Assembly: GCA_913775025.1 (NCBI GenBank)
Contig: CAJYJW010000065.1
Location: 1-33,261, forward strand
Length of the DNA stretch: 33,261 nt
Reading direction: 5' to 3'
Source: an uncultured Sphingomonas sp.
GTDB taxonomy: Bacteria; Pseudomonadota; Alphaproteobacteria; Sphingomonadales; Sphingomonadaceae
Part shown: positions 24,803 through 33,219 of the stretch, one piece after another
Layout: every line of letters starts with the position of its first letter
Position numbering within the stretch: the first letter of the stretch is position 1
The notes under the pieces: model-generated
What the model was told of the DNA's origin: nothing
What the model saw: the letters and a program-made list of their open reading frames with translations, nothing else
Databases searched by the model: none
Made by a program: the position numbers and the translations under genes

Positions 24803-26287
24803 TCAATGCGGCACGGCCCCCAGCGAGAAGCCGGTGCGGTCGTGCAGCGCATAGCGATCGACGATATCGGCGCTGGCGGCATTGTAGCCGATGATCGATA
24901 CGTCCGATCCATCCCGCCGCAGCCGCGCGACGACCTTATCGAGCGCGCCGACGGCCGAAATATCCCAGAAATGCGCGGGCGAAACATCAATCGTCACCGG
25001 CCGCCCCGCCTCGCCTGAAAAGGCGCGGACGAAGCGATCGACCGAGGCGAAAAACAGTTGCCCCGTCACGCGATAGAGGATGGCGCCGTCCGCCGCCTCA
25101 TGCCGCTCCACCGCGAACATGCGCCGCACCTTGCCTGCGAAGAATACGCCGGAAAGCAACACGCCCGCCAGCACGCCGCGCGCCAGATCGTGCGTCGCCA
25201 CCACCACGACGACCGTCGCCAGCATCACGGCGGAGGATGTCGCCGGATGGCGTGTCAGGTTGGGAATCGAATTCCAGCTGAACGTGCCGATCGACACCAT
25301 CACCATCACCGCGACGAGCGCGGGCATCGGGATGCGGCCGACGATCGGCCCCAGCACGACGAGCAGGAACAGCAGGAAGGCGCCTGCGAAGAGGGTGGAA
25401 AGCCGGGTGCGTCCGCCCGAGGTGACGTTGATGACCGACTGGCCGATCATCGCGCACCCCCCCATGCCGCCCACCAGCGCAGCGGCGATGTTCGCGCCGC
25501 CCTGGCCCATGCATTCCCGGCGCTTGTCGCTGTCGGTGTCGGTCATGTCGTCGACGATCTGGGCGGTCAGCAGCGATTCAAGCAGGCCCACCGCCGCCAT
25601 CGTCAGCGAATAGGGCAGGATGATCCGCAACGTCTCCCAGGTCAGCGGCACCTGCGGCCAGGCGAGGGACGGCAGGCCGGAGGGCAAGCGACCCATATCG
25701 CCGACGGTCCGTACCGGCAGGCCCCACCATATGCTGACCGCCGCGAGCACCACGATGGCGACGAGCGGGGAGGGGACCGCCTTGGTCAGGCGCGGCAGCA
25801 GATAGATGATCGCCAGCCCGCCCGCGACCATCGCATGGCTATGCCATGTCACGCCGATCAGCTGCGGCACTTGCGCCATGAAGATCAGGATGGCGAGCGC
25901 GTTGACGAAGCCTGTGATGACCGATCGCGACACGAACTGCATCAGCAGGTCCAGTCGCAGCAGCCCGGCGACGATCTGGATCAGCCCCATCAATATCGTG
26001 GCGGCGAGCAGATAGGCGACGCCGTGATCGCGTACGAGCGGCCCCACCACCACCGCCACGGCGGCCGTCGCGGCGGACACCATCGCGGGTCGCCCGCCGA
26101 GCAGCGCGATCACCATCGCGATCGCGACGGAGGCGTAGAGGCCGACACCGGGATCGACCCCGGCGATAATGGAAAAGCCGATCGCCTCGGGAATGAGGGC
26201 GAGCGCCACGACGGTGCCGGCCAGCACGTCGCGACGCATCTGGCCGATGTCGGAGAACCAAGGGTTCCGGTACGGTATGTCAGACAT
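24803..26287 (-). CDS. SulP family anion transporter with STAS domain
   Basis: 494 residues from ATG 26287. The transmembrane part begins with [32 protein letters not shown], the SulP signature, and continues through [18 protein letters not shown] and [26 protein letters not shown]. The last about 110 residues form a STAS domain ([36 protein letters not shown]) facing the cytosol. Substrates in the family are sulfate, bicarbonate or related anions. The protein resembles the bacterial group with short STAS domains that includes bicarbonate and sulfate carriers. The frame is open far upstream, but residues before 26287 lie in a structured leader. An alternative ATG at 26353 is in frame. No strong Shine-Dalgarno precedes 26287. 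Confidence 0.9.
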
Positions 26288-26307
26288 TGAAAGGCACCAA
26301 GAGCAGG

Positions 26308-26438
26308 CATGCGCGACCGCGCCGACAGGGGCTGCGGATGGATCGACGCGCATGATCTGTTGTCCGGCGGATCGGCGGCCGGAATAGCCACCCGGGTTTG
26401 CACCGGGTCCTGATGAATGTGGCGGCCATAGCGCCGCC
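26308..26438 (-). ncRNA. candidate structured 5' leader RNA of the SulP gene
   Basis: On the SulP transcript four helices follow one another. Stem A GGCGGC/GCCGCC pairs 26433-26438 with 26421-26426. Stem B ACCCGG/CCGGGT pairs 26403-26408 with 26390-26395, with a 7-base loop or alternatively a GCAA tetraloop closed by GGT/ACC. Stem C TCCGGC/GCCGGA pairs 26378-26383 with 26363-26368. A long-range 8-bp stem D CATGCGCG/CGCGCATG pairs 26347-26354 with 26308-26315 and ends 20 bases before the start codon. Such packing just upstream of an anion transporter suggests cis-regulation. From memory a sul1 candidate motif occurs before sulfate transporter genes in Alphaproteobacteria; I cannot confirm that this is it. 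Confidence 0.45.
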
Positions 26439-26538
26439 GCCCCGCGCAACGCAAGTCTATCGACGCCTCCGCGCATAGTCTCTGTTCGGCGGCAGGGCGC
26501 GGCGATATGCAGGCCGCGGTTTCGCTTGGGGCGCAGGG

Positions 26539-26853
26539 ATGGATAGGGAACGGATCGAGGCACATTGCCGGGTGGCGAACTGGGGGACGATCCTGTTCGG
26601 CTTCCTCGCGCTCTCCGCGCCGATCGTGCTGGCCGGCGAGGCGATCGTCTGGGTGGTTGAGCGACGCTGGCCGACACTCGCCTATCTGGGGGGATGGCGG
26701 CCTGGTCATTGGCTTGCGCCGCTCGCATTCCTGCCATTATCGGCGATCGTGCTGATCGTCGGCGGCGGCGGCTTCTTCCTTTCCCTCGGCTATTGGCGGT
26801 CGCAGGAGAAGCTGCGGCGTCGCCTCGGGCGTCGGCCTCCGCCGGCCGCCTGA
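26539..26853 (+). CDS. small two-helix membrane protein of unknown function
   Basis: 104 residues. Two hydrophobic helices are clear: WGTILFGFLALSAPIVLAGEAI (about 15-37) and WLAPLAFLPLSAIVLIVGGGGFFLSL (about 58-84). They are joined by a loop with WVVERRWPTLAYLGGW and followed by a basic tail (RRRLGRRPPP). I do not recognise a family. ATG 26539 is preceded by GGGG and CAGGG. It is divergent from the SulP gene and on the same strand, 85 bases before, as the TauE/SafE gene, so it may share the anion-related context. Confidence is limited by its small size. Confidence 0.6.
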   Translation: MDRERIEAHCRVANWGTILFGFLALSAPIVLAGEAIVWVVERRWPTLAYLGGWRPGHWLAPLAFLPLSAIVLIVGGGGFFLSLGYWRSQEKLRRRLGRRPPPAA

Positions 26854-27745: not shown

Positions 27746-28873
27746 TTATCGCGCGGGGTCGAAGGAAAATAGCTCGGTGCGAATTGAAGCCGGCGCGCCG
27801 GGCTTGAACCAGTTTGTATCCTGAATGTGGCTGGCCGTCACATAAAGCCGCCCGTCAGCCCCTTCAGAGAACGTGTCCGGCCAGCGCAGGCGGCGGTCGG
27901 TCAGCACCGTCTCCACCGTTGAGCCGTTCAGGCGCTTGATCGAATAGTCGGTGGGGGAGGTGAGGTAGAGCGTGCCAGCCTTCGTCATCCACAGCCCGTC
28001 CGCCACATGAGTGGTGGCGACCGTCCTCAATCCGCGCCCGCGCTCCGCCTCGCTCACGCCGTCGCGGAGCAGGGCGGTGTCGATCGAGTAGAGGGTCTTG
28101 CCCGTCAGCGCTTGAAAATAGAGCGTCTTGCCGTCGCCCGAGATCGCGATGCCATCTGCGGCGAAGGCCGGCTGGCGGCCATCCGGTCGGACGAGCGGCT
28201 TGCCGTCCAGCATCACCTTCACCGTCTTGTCCACCTGCGTGGCGGGGTGGCCATCGAGGGCGCGGAACCCCTTGCCGTTTTCAAGATCGATCACGATGAT
28301 CGCGCCGCGCGTGCCGCTGTCGGTGATGTAGCCGGTCTTCCCGTCGGGCGAGAAGCGGATGTCGTTCAGATAGGTGCCCTGCAACGCCACCGTTTCGGGC
28401 ACCAGGATCGTCTTCACGACGCGGTTGGTCTTGAGATCGATCTTCACCAGCTTCGGCGCGCCGGGCAGGATCTTCTCATTGCCGGGCGCGCCGGGATCGA
28501 GCACCCAGAGATTGCCCTTGCCATCCGGCACGATCGACTGGACGCAGACGAAATATTCGCCGACCGGCAATTCATTGGCGCGGGCATTGCGCCAGCTGTT
28601 CCACTTGGCGTCCGGATAGGCCTTCAGGCTGCCGTCCGGCATCACCTCGGCGACGGAGATGGGGGCGTCGTCCGTCCAGCGGGGGAAGTTGACGAAGCGG
28701 CGGCCATCCGCCGTCACCGCCACCCCCGTCGCCTGATGCTGGAACTGCGCGTCCTGTCGCAGCGCCGGGCTCTGGCCAGCCTGGGCATAAGCGACGCCGC
28801 CGCCCGCCACGACGGCGGCCGCGACCGCCGCGATGCCGAGGCCCATCCAGACGTTCTTGCGTTTTCCGGTCAT
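27746..28873 (-). CDS. Yellow/MRJP-family protein, if translated from its internal start
   Basis: Alternative reading of the second half of the fused frame: 375 residues from ATG 28873. A purine-rich AGGGGAACGG lies about four to nine bases before this ATG, a good ribosome-binding site, and the N-terminus (MTGKRKNVWMGLGI...) has the basic-then-hydrophobic shape of a signal peptide ending near AYAQA. That would place it in the periplasm as a stand-alone L-dopachrome-tautomerase-related propeller protein, the usual form in bacteria. The reaction is not established for bacterial members. The internal start would explain a signal-like sequence in the middle of a fusion. Confidence 0.5.
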   Translation of the reverse strand: MTGKRKNVWMGLGIAAVAAAVVAGGGVAYAQAGQSPALRQDAQFQHQATGVAVTADGRRFVNFPRWTDDAPISVAEVMPDGSLKAYPDAKWNSWRNARANELPVGEYFVCVQSIVPDGKGNLWVLDPGAPGNEKILPGAPKLVKIDLKTNRVVKTILVPETVALQGTYLNDIRFSPDGKTGYITDSGTRGAIIVIDLENGKGFRALDGHPATQVDKTVKVMLDGKPLVRPDGRQPAFAADGIAISGDGKTLYFQALTGKTLYSIDTALLRDGVSEAERGRGLRTVATTHVADGLWMTKAGTLYLTSPTDYSIKRLNGSTVETVLTDRRLRWPDTFSEGADGRLYVTASHIQDTNWFKPGAPASIRTELFSFDPAR

Positions 28874-29797
28874 GGCATCCGTTCCCCTGTTGAATGTCGT
28901 AAACCTCGCGCCTCCGGTCTGACGGGCGACGAAGTGAGTATGGAAGGCGTCGATCACGGCCTGCGGCGCTTCGCGCTGCGGGAAGTGGCCGACGCCGGCG
29001 ATTTCGATGAAGTTGAACGGCCCGGAGAATTTCTCCGGCACGGCCCTCGCGGCGGCGGGCGGGTTCACTCCGTCCTCCACGCCCTGCACATAGATGGCGG
29101 GTTGGGCGAGGGACGGCGTCGCCATGACCTTATCCTCGAGCCACCGGCTGCGGGGATCGGGCTCGGCCTCGCCCCAACGGGCGCGATAGCTGTGGAGGGT
29201 GATCGCCAGCCAATCGGGATTGTCCCAGGCCTTCGCCACGCGCGCGAAGGTCGCGTCGTCGAACCAGCCGGCGGGCGACCAGTTGCTCCAGTGGCGATGC
29301 GCGAAGACGCGCCTATCGGCTTCCACCGCCGCCGCCCCGCACGCCGTCGCCATGAACCAGTGATACCATTGCAGTTGCGCGTGCCAGAACGGTGGCGTCG
29401 GCATCCCGCCAAGCCTTGGCGGAGTGGACAGCATCGCGAGCCGCTCAACCTGATCGGGCCAGCCGATCGCGAGCGCCTCGGCAATGTTCGAGCCCCAATC
29501 GTGCCCGGCGACCATGAAGCGATTGACGCCAAGCCCGTCCAGCAGCGCGATCGCATCCATCGCGAGGATGCCGCTGTTGGCCGTGCGCGGTGCCTGGGGC
29601 GATACGAAGCGCGTCGCGCCGAAGCCGCGCAGCGACGGCACGATCACGCGGCAGCCGGCCCCCGCCAGCGCGGGGACGACCGCATCCCATGTGGAGCGGT
29701 CATCCGGCCAGCCGTGCAGGAGCAGCAGAACCGGCCCATCCGCCGGCCCGCTCTCCTGATAATCGATCCAGAGGTCGGGGGTGGCGATGACCGGCAT
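27746..29797 (-). CDS. alpha/beta hydrolase fused in frame to a Yellow/MRJP-family protein
   Basis: One uninterrupted frame of 683 residues. Residues 1 to about 295 form an epoxide-hydrolase-like alpha/beta hydrolase: oxyanion-hole motif HGWP (28-31), Asp nucleophile D100 (AGHDWGS), acid D242 (VEDGVNP) and H271 (GVGHFPQ). From residue 309 the protein has a membrane-anchor or signal-like segment (VWMGLGIAAVAAAVVAGGGVAYA). A six-bladed propeller of the Yellow/major royal jelly family (L-dopachrome tautomerase-related) follows: GVAVTADGRRFVNFPRW, LNDIRFSPDGKTGYITDSG, ADGIAISGDGKTLYFQALTG. No stop separates the halves. Either this is a real fusion, with a cytosolic hydrolase and periplasmic propeller, or the second half is translated from its own start (see the next entry). 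ATG 29797 is preferred over 29824. Confidence 0.65.
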   Translation of the reverse strand: MPVIATPDLWIDYQESGPADGPVLLLLHGWPDDRSTWDAVVPALAGAGCRVIVPSLRGFGATRFVSPQAPRTANSGILAMDAIALLDGLGVNRFMVAGHDWGSNIAEALAIGWPDQVERLAMLSTPPRLGGMPTPPFWHAQLQWYHWFMATACGAAAVEADRRVFAHRHWSNWSPAGWFDDATFARVAKAWDNPDWLAITLHSYRARWGEAEPDPRSRWLEDKVMATPSLAQPAIYVQGVEDGVNPPAAARAVPEKFSGPFNFIEIAGVGHFPQREAPQAVIDAFHTHFVARQTGGARFTTFNRGTDAMTGKRKNVWMGLGIAAVAAAVVAGGGVAYAQAGQSPALRQDAQFQHQATGVAVTADGRRFVNFPRWTDDAPISVAEVMPDGSLKAYPDAKWNSWRNARANELPVGEYFVCVQSIVPDGKGNLWVLDPGAPGNEKILPGAPKLVKIDLKTNRVVKTILVPETVALQGTYLNDIRFSPDGKTGYITDSGTRGAIIVIDLENGKGFRALDGHPATQVDKTVKVMLDGKPLVRPDGRQPAFAADGIAISGDGKTLYFQALTGKTLYSIDTALLRDGVSEAERGRGLRTVATTHVADGLWMTKAGTLYLTSPTDYSIKRLNGSTVETVLTDRRLRWPDTFSEGADGRLYVTASHIQDTNWFKPGAPASIRTELFSFDPAR

Positions 29798-29907
29798 AGG
29801 CGCTGAACCCCGCCGCCCCGCCATTGGTTCAGAAAAAATCTATGCGTAAGACAAAGTTACCGCCGCGCACGATACGCCGCGACGCATATCCGCTGCCGCT
29901 GCCGGCA

Positions 29908-31263: not shown

Positions 31264-33219
31264 TCACGGATCCACCATCGTCAGCGTTACGGCGGCGATA
31301 CGCGCGCCGGCCTGCTCCAGCAGATCCTTCGCCATTCGCGTCGCATCGGTCGGCGTCACGCGTGCGCGCGCCACCAGCAGCACGCCATCGGCCATCGCCG
31401 CCAGCTCCCGCGCCTCGGACAAAGCCAGCGCCGGCGCACAATCGAGCAGCACCATGTCATAGAGCTTTTCGAGATCGCGGATCAGCCCGGCCATCTGCGG
31501 CGAGGAAACCGCGCCGTTCGCGACCTGGCGTTCGCTCCCCTGCGCCAGATATTGCGCGCCCGATGGCGTATCCACCTCCACGGCGTCGCGAAAATCGACG
31601 TCGCCGTCGAGCACCTCGGCCAGCCCTATCCGTACATAGGGGCTGAGGGCGCGGCTGGCGGCGGGGCGGCGGCCGTCGCAATCGACCAGCACCACGCGCA
31701 GGCCGGCCAGCGCGGCGGAACGAGCGAGGCACAGCGCGACCGTCGTCTTGCCCTCCTCCGGCAGCGCGGACGAGATGGCGATCGAGCGCATCCCCTCGCC
31801 ACCCGCCGACAGGCCCGAATGGATGCCCCGAAAGGCGAGGCCGAAGGGGGAGCGGCGGTGATTGTACAGATAATCGGGCGGCCCCATCCGATCGTCCGCC
31901 GGAAAATCGGCGTCGGCCACGCGCGCCAGATCGGGCACCATGCCGATCACCGGGCGGCCGAGCCGCCGCTCCGCCTGCATCCGCGTGCGGAAGCCCTTGG
32001 TCGTTCCTTCGCGCACCAGCACCGTCACGATCGCGGCGGCCAGCGCCGCCAGCAGGCTGAACAGCACGAACGGCAATGCGGCCGGCGTGCGTCGCGCCGC
32101 CGGCACGCTGGCGCGGGAGATGACGTAGGCGGCGGCGGTATCGCGCCGCGCCTCCTCCACCAGCGTGCGATAGCGGCTGGCGAACCCTTCGTAGCGGGCG
32201 CGGGCGGCGGCGGCGCGTGTATCCATCCGGCGGCGCAAGGCGGTCGCGCGGTCCATCGCGGCCAGCTCGTCCCCCGCGCGGGCACGGGCGGCCCGCAGCA
32301 GCGCTAGGCGGTTGCGGGCATTGCCGAGATCGGTGTTCAGCCGGGTCAGGCGGCGAACCTCGTTCGCGATCTCCCGATCGATCTCTGGCGGGCGGGGCAC
32401 GGTGGCGTTCGCCAGCAATTCGCGCAGGCGGGGGGAGGATAGGCGACCCTGCCCGCCGCCCCGCTCCACCGAAAGGCGCGCGGCGAGCGCCTGCTCGTCG
32501 AAGGCCGCCGTCTGTATGCCCGCGTCGAGCGCGCGTATGTCGTTCGAAAGGGTGGCGCGGTCGGTCGGGCGGCTGAGGATGCCGACCGCCTCGTTCAGTC
32601 CGCGCGCCGCCGCCTCGTCGCGGATGGTCTGCTCGCGCGCGGCCGCCACCTGCGCCTGTAGCGCTGATTTTTCGCGGCCACGCACGCCGCCGACCCGCCT
32701 GTCCGCCACATAGGTTTCGGCCAGCGTGTTCAGGATGCCCGTCGCCAGCACCCGATCGGCGGCGGCGTAGCGCACCGCGACCGCATAGGAGGTACCGCTC
32801 GTCTCGATCCGCAGATTGTCGCGCACCGTATCGATCGCCTGCCGCCGCGCATCCACTCGCGCGATCGCCGGGCCGCTGCGTGGCTGGCCGACACCGCGCA
32901 CGTTGGTGAGGCCGAGGCGATCCACGACGGCCGCCACCAGTTCGCGCGAGGTCAGCAGCCGCACCTCGGTATTGCGGGCGAGCGGGCTAGCGGAGGATGC
33001 GGTGGCGGATGCCGGGGCGAGCCGATCGAACCCGTGATCCAGCCAGATGTCGGCGCGCGCCACATACCGGCGCGGCATCAGCACCCAGGCGATCAGCGCG
33101 GCGGCCAGCACCAGCAGCATGGCGCCGATGATCCAGCGCCGATGATAGCGCAGCGCCCGTCGTATCGTCGCGAGGCGGCCGTCGGCCACGGGGCGCTCGG
33201 GCCCGTCGTTCTCCGCCAT
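31264..33219 (-). CDS. Wzz/BY-kinase-like polysaccharide chain-length and export protein
   Basis: 651 residues. The first membrane helix (WIIGAMLLVLAAALIAWVLM, about 30-50) opens a Wzz periplasmic part with long coiled-coil helices, closed by a second helix (LPFVLFSLLAALAAAIVTVLV). The cytosolic P-loop domain has a Walker A of the form SALPEEGKTT (484-493, K491), a Walker A' VLVDCD (D513, D515) and a Walker B LLDCAP (D593), as in bacterial tyrosine kinases (Wzc/GumC/ExoP type). The C-terminus ends TLTMVDP without a tyrosine cluster. The family regulates polymer length of exopolysaccharide through Wzy. ATG 33219 has GGGG six bases upstream, but the frame remains open past the window edge, so the start is not certain. 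Confidence 0.9.
   Translation of the reverse strand: MAENDGPERPVADGRLATIRRALRYHRRWIIGAMLLVLAAALIAWVLMPRRYVARADIWLDHGFDRLAPASATASSASPLARNTEVRLLTSRELVAAVVDRLGLTNVRGVGQPRSGPAIARVDARRQAIDTVRDNLRIETSGTSYAVAVRYAAADRVLATGILNTLAETYVADRRVGGVRGREKSALQAQVAAAREQTIRDEAAARGLNEAVGILSRPTDRATLSNDIRALDAGIQTAAFDEQALAARLSVERGGGQGRLSSPRLRELLANATVPRPPEIDREIANEVRRLTRLNTDLGNARNRLALLRAARARAGDELAAMDRATALRRRMDTRAAAARARYEGFASRYRTLVEEARRDTAAAYVISRASVPAARRTPAALPFVLFSLLAALAAAIVTVLVREGTTKGFRTRMQAERRLGRPVIGMVPDLARVADADFPADDRMGPPDYLYNHRRSPFGLAFRGIHSGLSAGGEGMRSIAISSALPEEGKTTVALCLARSAALAGLRVVLVDCDGRRPAASRALSPYVRIGLAEVLDGDVDFRDAVEVDTPSGAQYLAQGSERQVANGAVSSPQMAGLIRDLEKLYDMVLLDCAPALALSEARELAAMADGVLLVARARVTPTDATRMAKDLLEQAGARIAAVTLTMVDP

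Follow-up and report, generated by a model that had tools for sequence, protein, structure and literature searches.

In Bradyrhizobium, a single open reading frame encodes the cytochrome b/c1 precursor FbcH, from which two proteins are obtained: an internal signal exports the second protein, and signal peptidase separates it from the first. We know of no established role for the bacterial Yellow/MRJP proteins, whose stand-alone members have their own start codon and signal peptide, are joined to no hydrolase, and carry the name 'L-dopachrome tautomerase-related protein' in plasmid records. Internal starts within one frame have also been described, and the part of a Caulobacter crescentus study that concerns them counts 75 CDSs with internal in-frame starts (PMC4117421). 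Similarly, the part of another report that deals with the Streptomyces Rieske protein describes a C-terminal domain that is exported by an internal signal peptide (PMC13186574).

The gene described here joins an alpha/beta hydrolase to a Yellow/MRJP propeller. It lies on the stretch of DNA analysed, hereafter the window, which comprises 33,261 bases and is one entire contig out of the 346 in a draft genome. The preliminary description, which left the strand unstated, was correct that the in-frame hydrolase-Yellow ORF is real. Specifically, translation of the minus strand from the ATG at 29797 to position 27746 yields 683 amino acids with the sole stop at the end; the longest in-frame start of this ORF lies upstream of that ATG, at 29824 (minus strand). 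Both domains are recognised by Pfam, with Abhydrolase_1 matching residues 22-277 (72.8 bits, cut-off 25.8) and MRJP (PF03022) matching residues 419-626 (84.2 bits, cut-off 19.8), which assigns the C-terminal part to the latter family. NCBIfam matches of the fusion protein fall far under their respective cut-offs. The parts of the gene are as follows.

28931..29797, minus strand: alpha/beta hydrolase domain, residues 1-289 (Pfam Abhydrolase_1), with putative catalytic residues D100, D242 and H271; 5bov is the nearest solved sequence
28874..28930, minus strand: linker, residues 290-308, 19 codons without a stop; 16 codons in relatives, whose linkers appear to be under purifying selection in the hydrolase frame
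28883..28888, minus strand: Shine-Dalgarno-like (SD-like) AGGGGA, 10-15 nt ahead of the internal start, dG -6.5; a comparable site in 48 of 49 fused loci
28871..28873, minus strand: internal ATG, residue 309, the proposed second start; ATG in 48 and GTG in 1 of 49 fused loci
28790..28846, minus strand: hydrophobic helix, residues 318-336, mean hydropathy 1.98 over 19 residues; proposed core of the propeller signal peptide and membrane anchor of the hydrolase
28784..28792, minus strand: AYA, residues 336-338, proposed signal peptidase site ahead of Q339; AxA[QRK] in 48 of 49 fused and 0 of 18 tail-only loci
27746..28765, minus strand: MRJP/Yellow propeller of the six-bladed type, residues 345-683 plus the stop codon (Pfam MRJP; model pLDDT 94.0, pTM 0.92; nearest folds 2qe8, 9w1k and 5yyl)

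As in FbcH, one ORF runs through both proteins and contains an internal signal with an AxA site, at which cleavage is predicted. Unlike FbcH, the fusion consists of other proteins, its upstream partner is a soluble-type enzyme in which no other membrane span was found, and an internal start with an SD-like site is conserved as well. Its propeller shares domain and fold with the stand-alone bacterial MRJP/Yellow proteins, and its hydrolase shares with epoxide hydrolases (5bov, 1ehy and others) the fold, the Asp nucleophile motif GHDWG, and HGWP, whereas the C-terminal helix and propeller are additions that enzymes of the 5bov/1ehy type do not have. The gene resembles the C. crescentus cases in being a single ORF with two in-frame starts, but, compared with those cases as treated in that part of the study, its inner start opens at a signal peptide, such that the two forms would reach different compartments (PMC4117421). 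Like the Streptomyces Rieske protein, the fusion is proposed to export its C-terminal domain by an internal signal, whereas the Rieske protein is presented in the corresponding part of its report as a polytopic Tat substrate that is one protein (PMC13186574). No publication on a hydrolase-MRJP fusion was found in the literature searched, which was a limited collection queried with limited terms.

An open frame alone is weak evidence for a fusion in such GC-rich DNA, because long upstream frames that lack a hydrolase match also occur ahead of unfused propellers, at L193, where a frame of 365 codons runs into the propeller, and at L195. The recurrence of the arrangement carries more weight. Among 98 related genomes, the propeller is matched in 14 and the hydrolase (E 1e-40) in 6, and all three genomes examined from the window's genus carry the fusion, one of them (G001) with an additional stand-alone propeller (L017). 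Of 397 genomes sampled from the family, 10 have the hydrolase (E 1e-60), 16 the propeller (E 1e-100), and five (G000, G001, G002, G404 and G433) both halves in one frame. The genus of G433, represented by 151 genomes, yields the hydrolase in 42, the propeller in 38, and both in a single open frame in 25; among the remaining 13 genomes with a propeller, two (G493 and G512) have a broken hydrolase ahead of it and 11 are unfused. A scan of named genomes, in which the best 80 of 88 loci were classified, adds 43 loci with an open junction, 41 of them titled Sphingomonas, along with 17 in which the hydrolase has a helix tail only and 18 plain hydrolases. When identical copies are removed and the two remaining loci (L068 and L073) are set aside, 49 fused and 18 tail-only distinct loci are left, the 49 being related sequences rather than independent counts. 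Because the same hydrolase-to-propeller frame is present in all 49, the junction is beyond chance, and the notion of a local event or error is not supported.

A stop in the linker of homologues, which the preliminary description proposed to look for, is absent from the 43 open loci among the best 80 of 88 but does have counterparts elsewhere. In L191 a stop follows the hydrolase and the genes are separate. L068, from a lichen MAG, has an in-frame stop near 2505, where Gln follows the AxA (AFA), which would leave a hydrolase with a helix tail; this stop could be a MAG error. L073 carries a frameshift inside the hydrolase. The hydrolase frame is also broken in L071 and L072, further upstream of an open junction, and in the fused-type loci L196 and L197, whose propeller frames are intact.

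Some genomes hold more than one copy: G550 has two fused copies and a stand-alone propeller, G450 and G485 each have one fused and one unfused copy, and Sphingomonas sp. PsM26 has two fused copies (L051 and L053). A contig titled Microvirga sp. SRT01 (L050) has a fusion that hardly differs from the one in G433, and is perhaps a mislabelled or contaminated record.

The linker bears the marks of protein-coding sequence. The distance from a conserved Phe to the internal start is exactly 16 codons in 48 of the 49 fused loci; the window, with 19, differs from its relatives by three whole codons. Across 43 unique linkers, the hydrolase frame has a pN/pS of 0.56 and the shifted frames 0.98 and 1.30; these are simple summed pair counts, uncorrected for relatedness, with shifted-frame pairs that contain a stop dropped. 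Since the ratio is lowest in the hydrolase frame, the linker, which precedes the internal start, is read as coding sequence and, as judged from these counts, is under purifying selection in that frame.

The internal start codon is also kept in all 49 fused loci. Again as the preliminary description held, the propeller has a signal-like helix and a ribosome-binding site of its own: the sequence just upstream of ATG 28873 is AACAGGGGAACGGATGCC, with AGGGGA as the putative site, and the hydrophobic stretch that follows closes in AYA-Q. An SD-like 4-mer precedes the internal start in 48 of 49 loci, compared with 51 of 533 other in-frame ATGs in the same ORFs. This site is variously coded (CGG AGC, AGG AGC, AGG AAC, TGG AGC, AGG ACG, AGG ATG and others), but the core GGA is retained. 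Where the linker has an Arg at this site, its codon is CGG or AGG in 45 of 46 cases, versus 28% of Arg codons in the same ORFs, and even L055, in which the Arg has become Trp, retains GGAG. Averaged over the 49 fused loci, the SD duplex energy is -5.58, versus -1.76 under synonymous recoding; locus by locus, 22 of 49 fall below 0.05, with the window (0.152) and L004 (0.802) above. The site is lost in all three propeller-less loci that have a recognisable linker (L091, L095 and L105, which form one clade), and is likewise absent from L197, in which the hydrolase is broken. The putative internal start and its ribosome-binding-type site are therefore conserved in the manner of a nested gene, with one exception: L066 is fused and lacks the SD-like site, so internal initiation is not needed everywhere.

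The motif AxA[QRK] comes directly after the helix in all but one of the 49 fused loci (L039 has SHAQ instead), but in none of the 18 tail-only loci, whose helix is of similar hydropathy. Within the G433 genus, eight genomes lack the fusion and have the hydrolase in tail-only form (G446, G447, G458, G497, G500, G540, G553 and G568). Two of these, G446 and G447, carry the helix-tailed hydrolase at one site and a stand-alone propeller of the exported type elsewhere; no propeller was found at E 1e-100 in the other six (G458, G497, G500, G540, G553 and G568). The full-length structural model is uninformative on the helix and junction because pLDDT is below 50 across residues 292-343.

We propose that one gene yields both a hydrolase-helix-propeller polyprotein and a separately started propeller, and that cleavage would free the propeller in the periplasm while the hydrolase stays anchored on the cytosolic side, a reading to which we assign a probability of about 0.65. 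Ribosomes that begin at the first start would make the whole polyprotein, whereas those that begin at the internal ATG would make the propeller alone, with the same helix serving as an ordinary signal peptide. In either case the helix would take the propeller to the periplasm and signal peptidase would cut at the AxA. Two products are predicted: a hydrolase whose C-terminal helix anchors it to the cytosolic face of the inner membrane, and a soluble periplasmic propeller. The preliminary description offered two readings, a two-domain protein that spans the membrane or a gene pair that lost its stop and makes both forms; the evidence is most consistent with both at once, as a conserved arrangement.

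Should the fusion instead remain covalent, it would sit in the inner membrane as a two-faced protein, its cytosolic hydrolase tethered to a periplasmic propeller. The conserved frame and linker agree with such a protein, a helix left uncut would simply span the membrane, and L066 manages with no internal SD-like site. However, an uncut anchor needs no AxA[QRK], the very motif that separates fused from tail-only loci; the internal start is conserved; and G446 and G447 have the two parts apart, making a lasting tether rather unlikely. A different explanation is that only separate translation of the propeller matters, the missing hydrolase stop being tolerated read-on and the long form an unselected by-product. 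This would account for the strong conservation of the SD-like site and start, and the two-gene arrangement of L191 is in keeping with it. Yet the linker evolves as protein at a nearly constant length, in the 18 distinct tail-only loci the hydrolase is followed by a hydrophobic helix although no propeller is present, and in the absence of a stop every hydrolase must carry the helix. We regard an unselected long form as unlikely.

Alternatively, a stop or frame boundary might have been erased by assembly or sequencing error, given that the window comes from a draft of many contigs and that frame breaks do occur in some loci (L071-L073, L196 and L197). The same open junction is found, however, in 49 distinct loci, including a complete plasmid record of Sphingomonas taxi in which the fusion is annotated as one CDS of 676 amino acids. 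This recurrence in effect rules out an assembly artefact and leaves error of either kind with next to no probability. The fusion is real, conserved and functional-looking, and its sequences frame the proposed polyprotein and separately started propeller well.

How might the fusion have arisen? In L191 the same two genes lie in the same order, with a TGA that ends the hydrolase, a spacer of 46 nt, and a propeller with its own SD-like site. This arrangement of adjacent, separate genes suggests a route: the fusion would most simply have arisen when a pair like that of L191 lost its stop. The two genes are neighbours in other orders as well: the propeller is upstream of the hydrolase in L192 and L194, L090 has the order propeller, SDR, hydrolase, and on a Rhizobium leguminosarum plasmid (L207) the propeller is followed by the hydrolase 228 nt away. 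Such repeated proximity in differing orders suggests that the two proteins may serve one pathway.

The hydrolase tree, with 92 rows (48 fused including L068, 18 tail-only and 26 plain), needs seven changes. A single origin for the fused and tail-only forms is not rejected (p-AU 0.40), and the window and L004 are placed among plain hydrolases by weakly supported forks. Tail-only rows are nested within fused rows, so the tail-only loci are most simply read as having lost the propeller while retaining the helix. Several such losses are not proved, because an AU test does not reject a single tail-only clade at 0.05 (p 0.0617). The propeller tree contains few stand-alone rows and its outgroup is very long; its starred branches require a minimum of two switches between the fused and the stand-alone state. 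Separately, plain hydrolase relatives occur in the Bacteroidota genera Spirosoma (L106, 58% identical) and Mucilaginibacter (L108, 51%), which suggests horizontal transfer.

The hydrolase has the residues of the epoxide hydrolase type. D100, D242 and H271, which the preliminary description had listed for the hydrolase, are invariant in 5 of 5 and in 27 of 27 fused proteins, as are, in the 27, the GHDWG that contains D100 and the HGWP; by position they are the probable Asp nucleophile, acid and His base. The nearest solved sequence, 5bov, is a putative epoxide hydrolase (E 5.4e-56), and the nearest folds are epoxide hydrolases, 1ehy among them, and dehalogenase relatives. Two lid tyrosines are a feature of epoxide hydrolases; Y145 and Y204, invariant in 27 of 27 fused proteins, are candidates for them. 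Fluoroacetate dehalogenases have Arg residues directly after the nucleophile; here D100 is followed by W-G-S-N, with W101 and G102 invariant in all 27, and those Arg residues are absent. The propeller model has the Yellow-type fold, with TMq of 0.86 to 2qe8, 0.78-0.79 to 9w1k, the Aedes dopachrome conversion enzyme (18-20% identity), and 0.78 to 5yyl_A, a royal jelly protein.

Around the best 80 of 88 loci, neighbours include a catalase-like family (at least 31), SDR (at least 30), hormone-sensitive-lipase-type esterases (at least 19) and Crp-type regulators (at least 14), as grouped by single linkage of mechanically called ORFs. Only Pfam-checked families are used, because F1 and others are opposite-strand artefacts. 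One of the catalase-like paralogues clears Pfam Catalase (29.6 bits, cut-off 25), whereas the other does not, and the gene next to the fusion on the S. taxi plasmid bears the annotation 'catalase family protein'. Single catalase-like neighbours gave no match to solved structures, and their profile gave only a weak one (4cab, E 0.0017). Small catalase-like haem enzymes, such as one from coral, are known to turn fatty-acid hydroperoxides into epoxides, and on this basis we would guess that the fusion system handles epoxides or oxylipins.

A broader version of our proposal is that the helix doubles by design as the signal peptide of a separately startable propeller and, after cleavage, as the C-terminal anchor of the hydrolase, with selection keeping both modes of translation. 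One gene would then set the ratio of inner-face hydrolase to periplasmic propeller, both acting on molecules of one kind; the catalase-like, SDR and esterase neighbours hint that this could be part of oxidised-lipid or epoxide metabolism. We offer this tentatively, at somewhat under even odds. If the helix does serve in both roles, it provides a compact route by which one frame gives two proteins in two compartments, and genes of this kind would be routinely mis-annotated. A single-protein record of the fusion is already public, but the propeller is hidden there because the S. taxi copy carries no name other than 'alpha/beta fold hydrolase'. A conserved fusion and a recurrent epoxide-hydrolase-like neighbour constitute a testable lead to the substrate of bacterial Yellow/MRJP proteins.

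The window itself lacks the neighbourhood of catalase-like, SDR, esterase and Crp-type genes, and TauE/SafE and metallophosphoesterase genes (Pfam) flank the fusion. Elsewhere in the window, an ORF at 31264-33219 (minus strand) resembles, by eye, an exopolysaccharide chain-length/tyrosine kinase protein. An Rfam sul1 RNA at 26358-26413 (minus strand; 77.3 bits, gathering threshold 36.2) lies at the start of a minus-strand ORF, 24803-26737, that looks like a SulP-type sulfate transporter and whose true start is probably nearer 26290.
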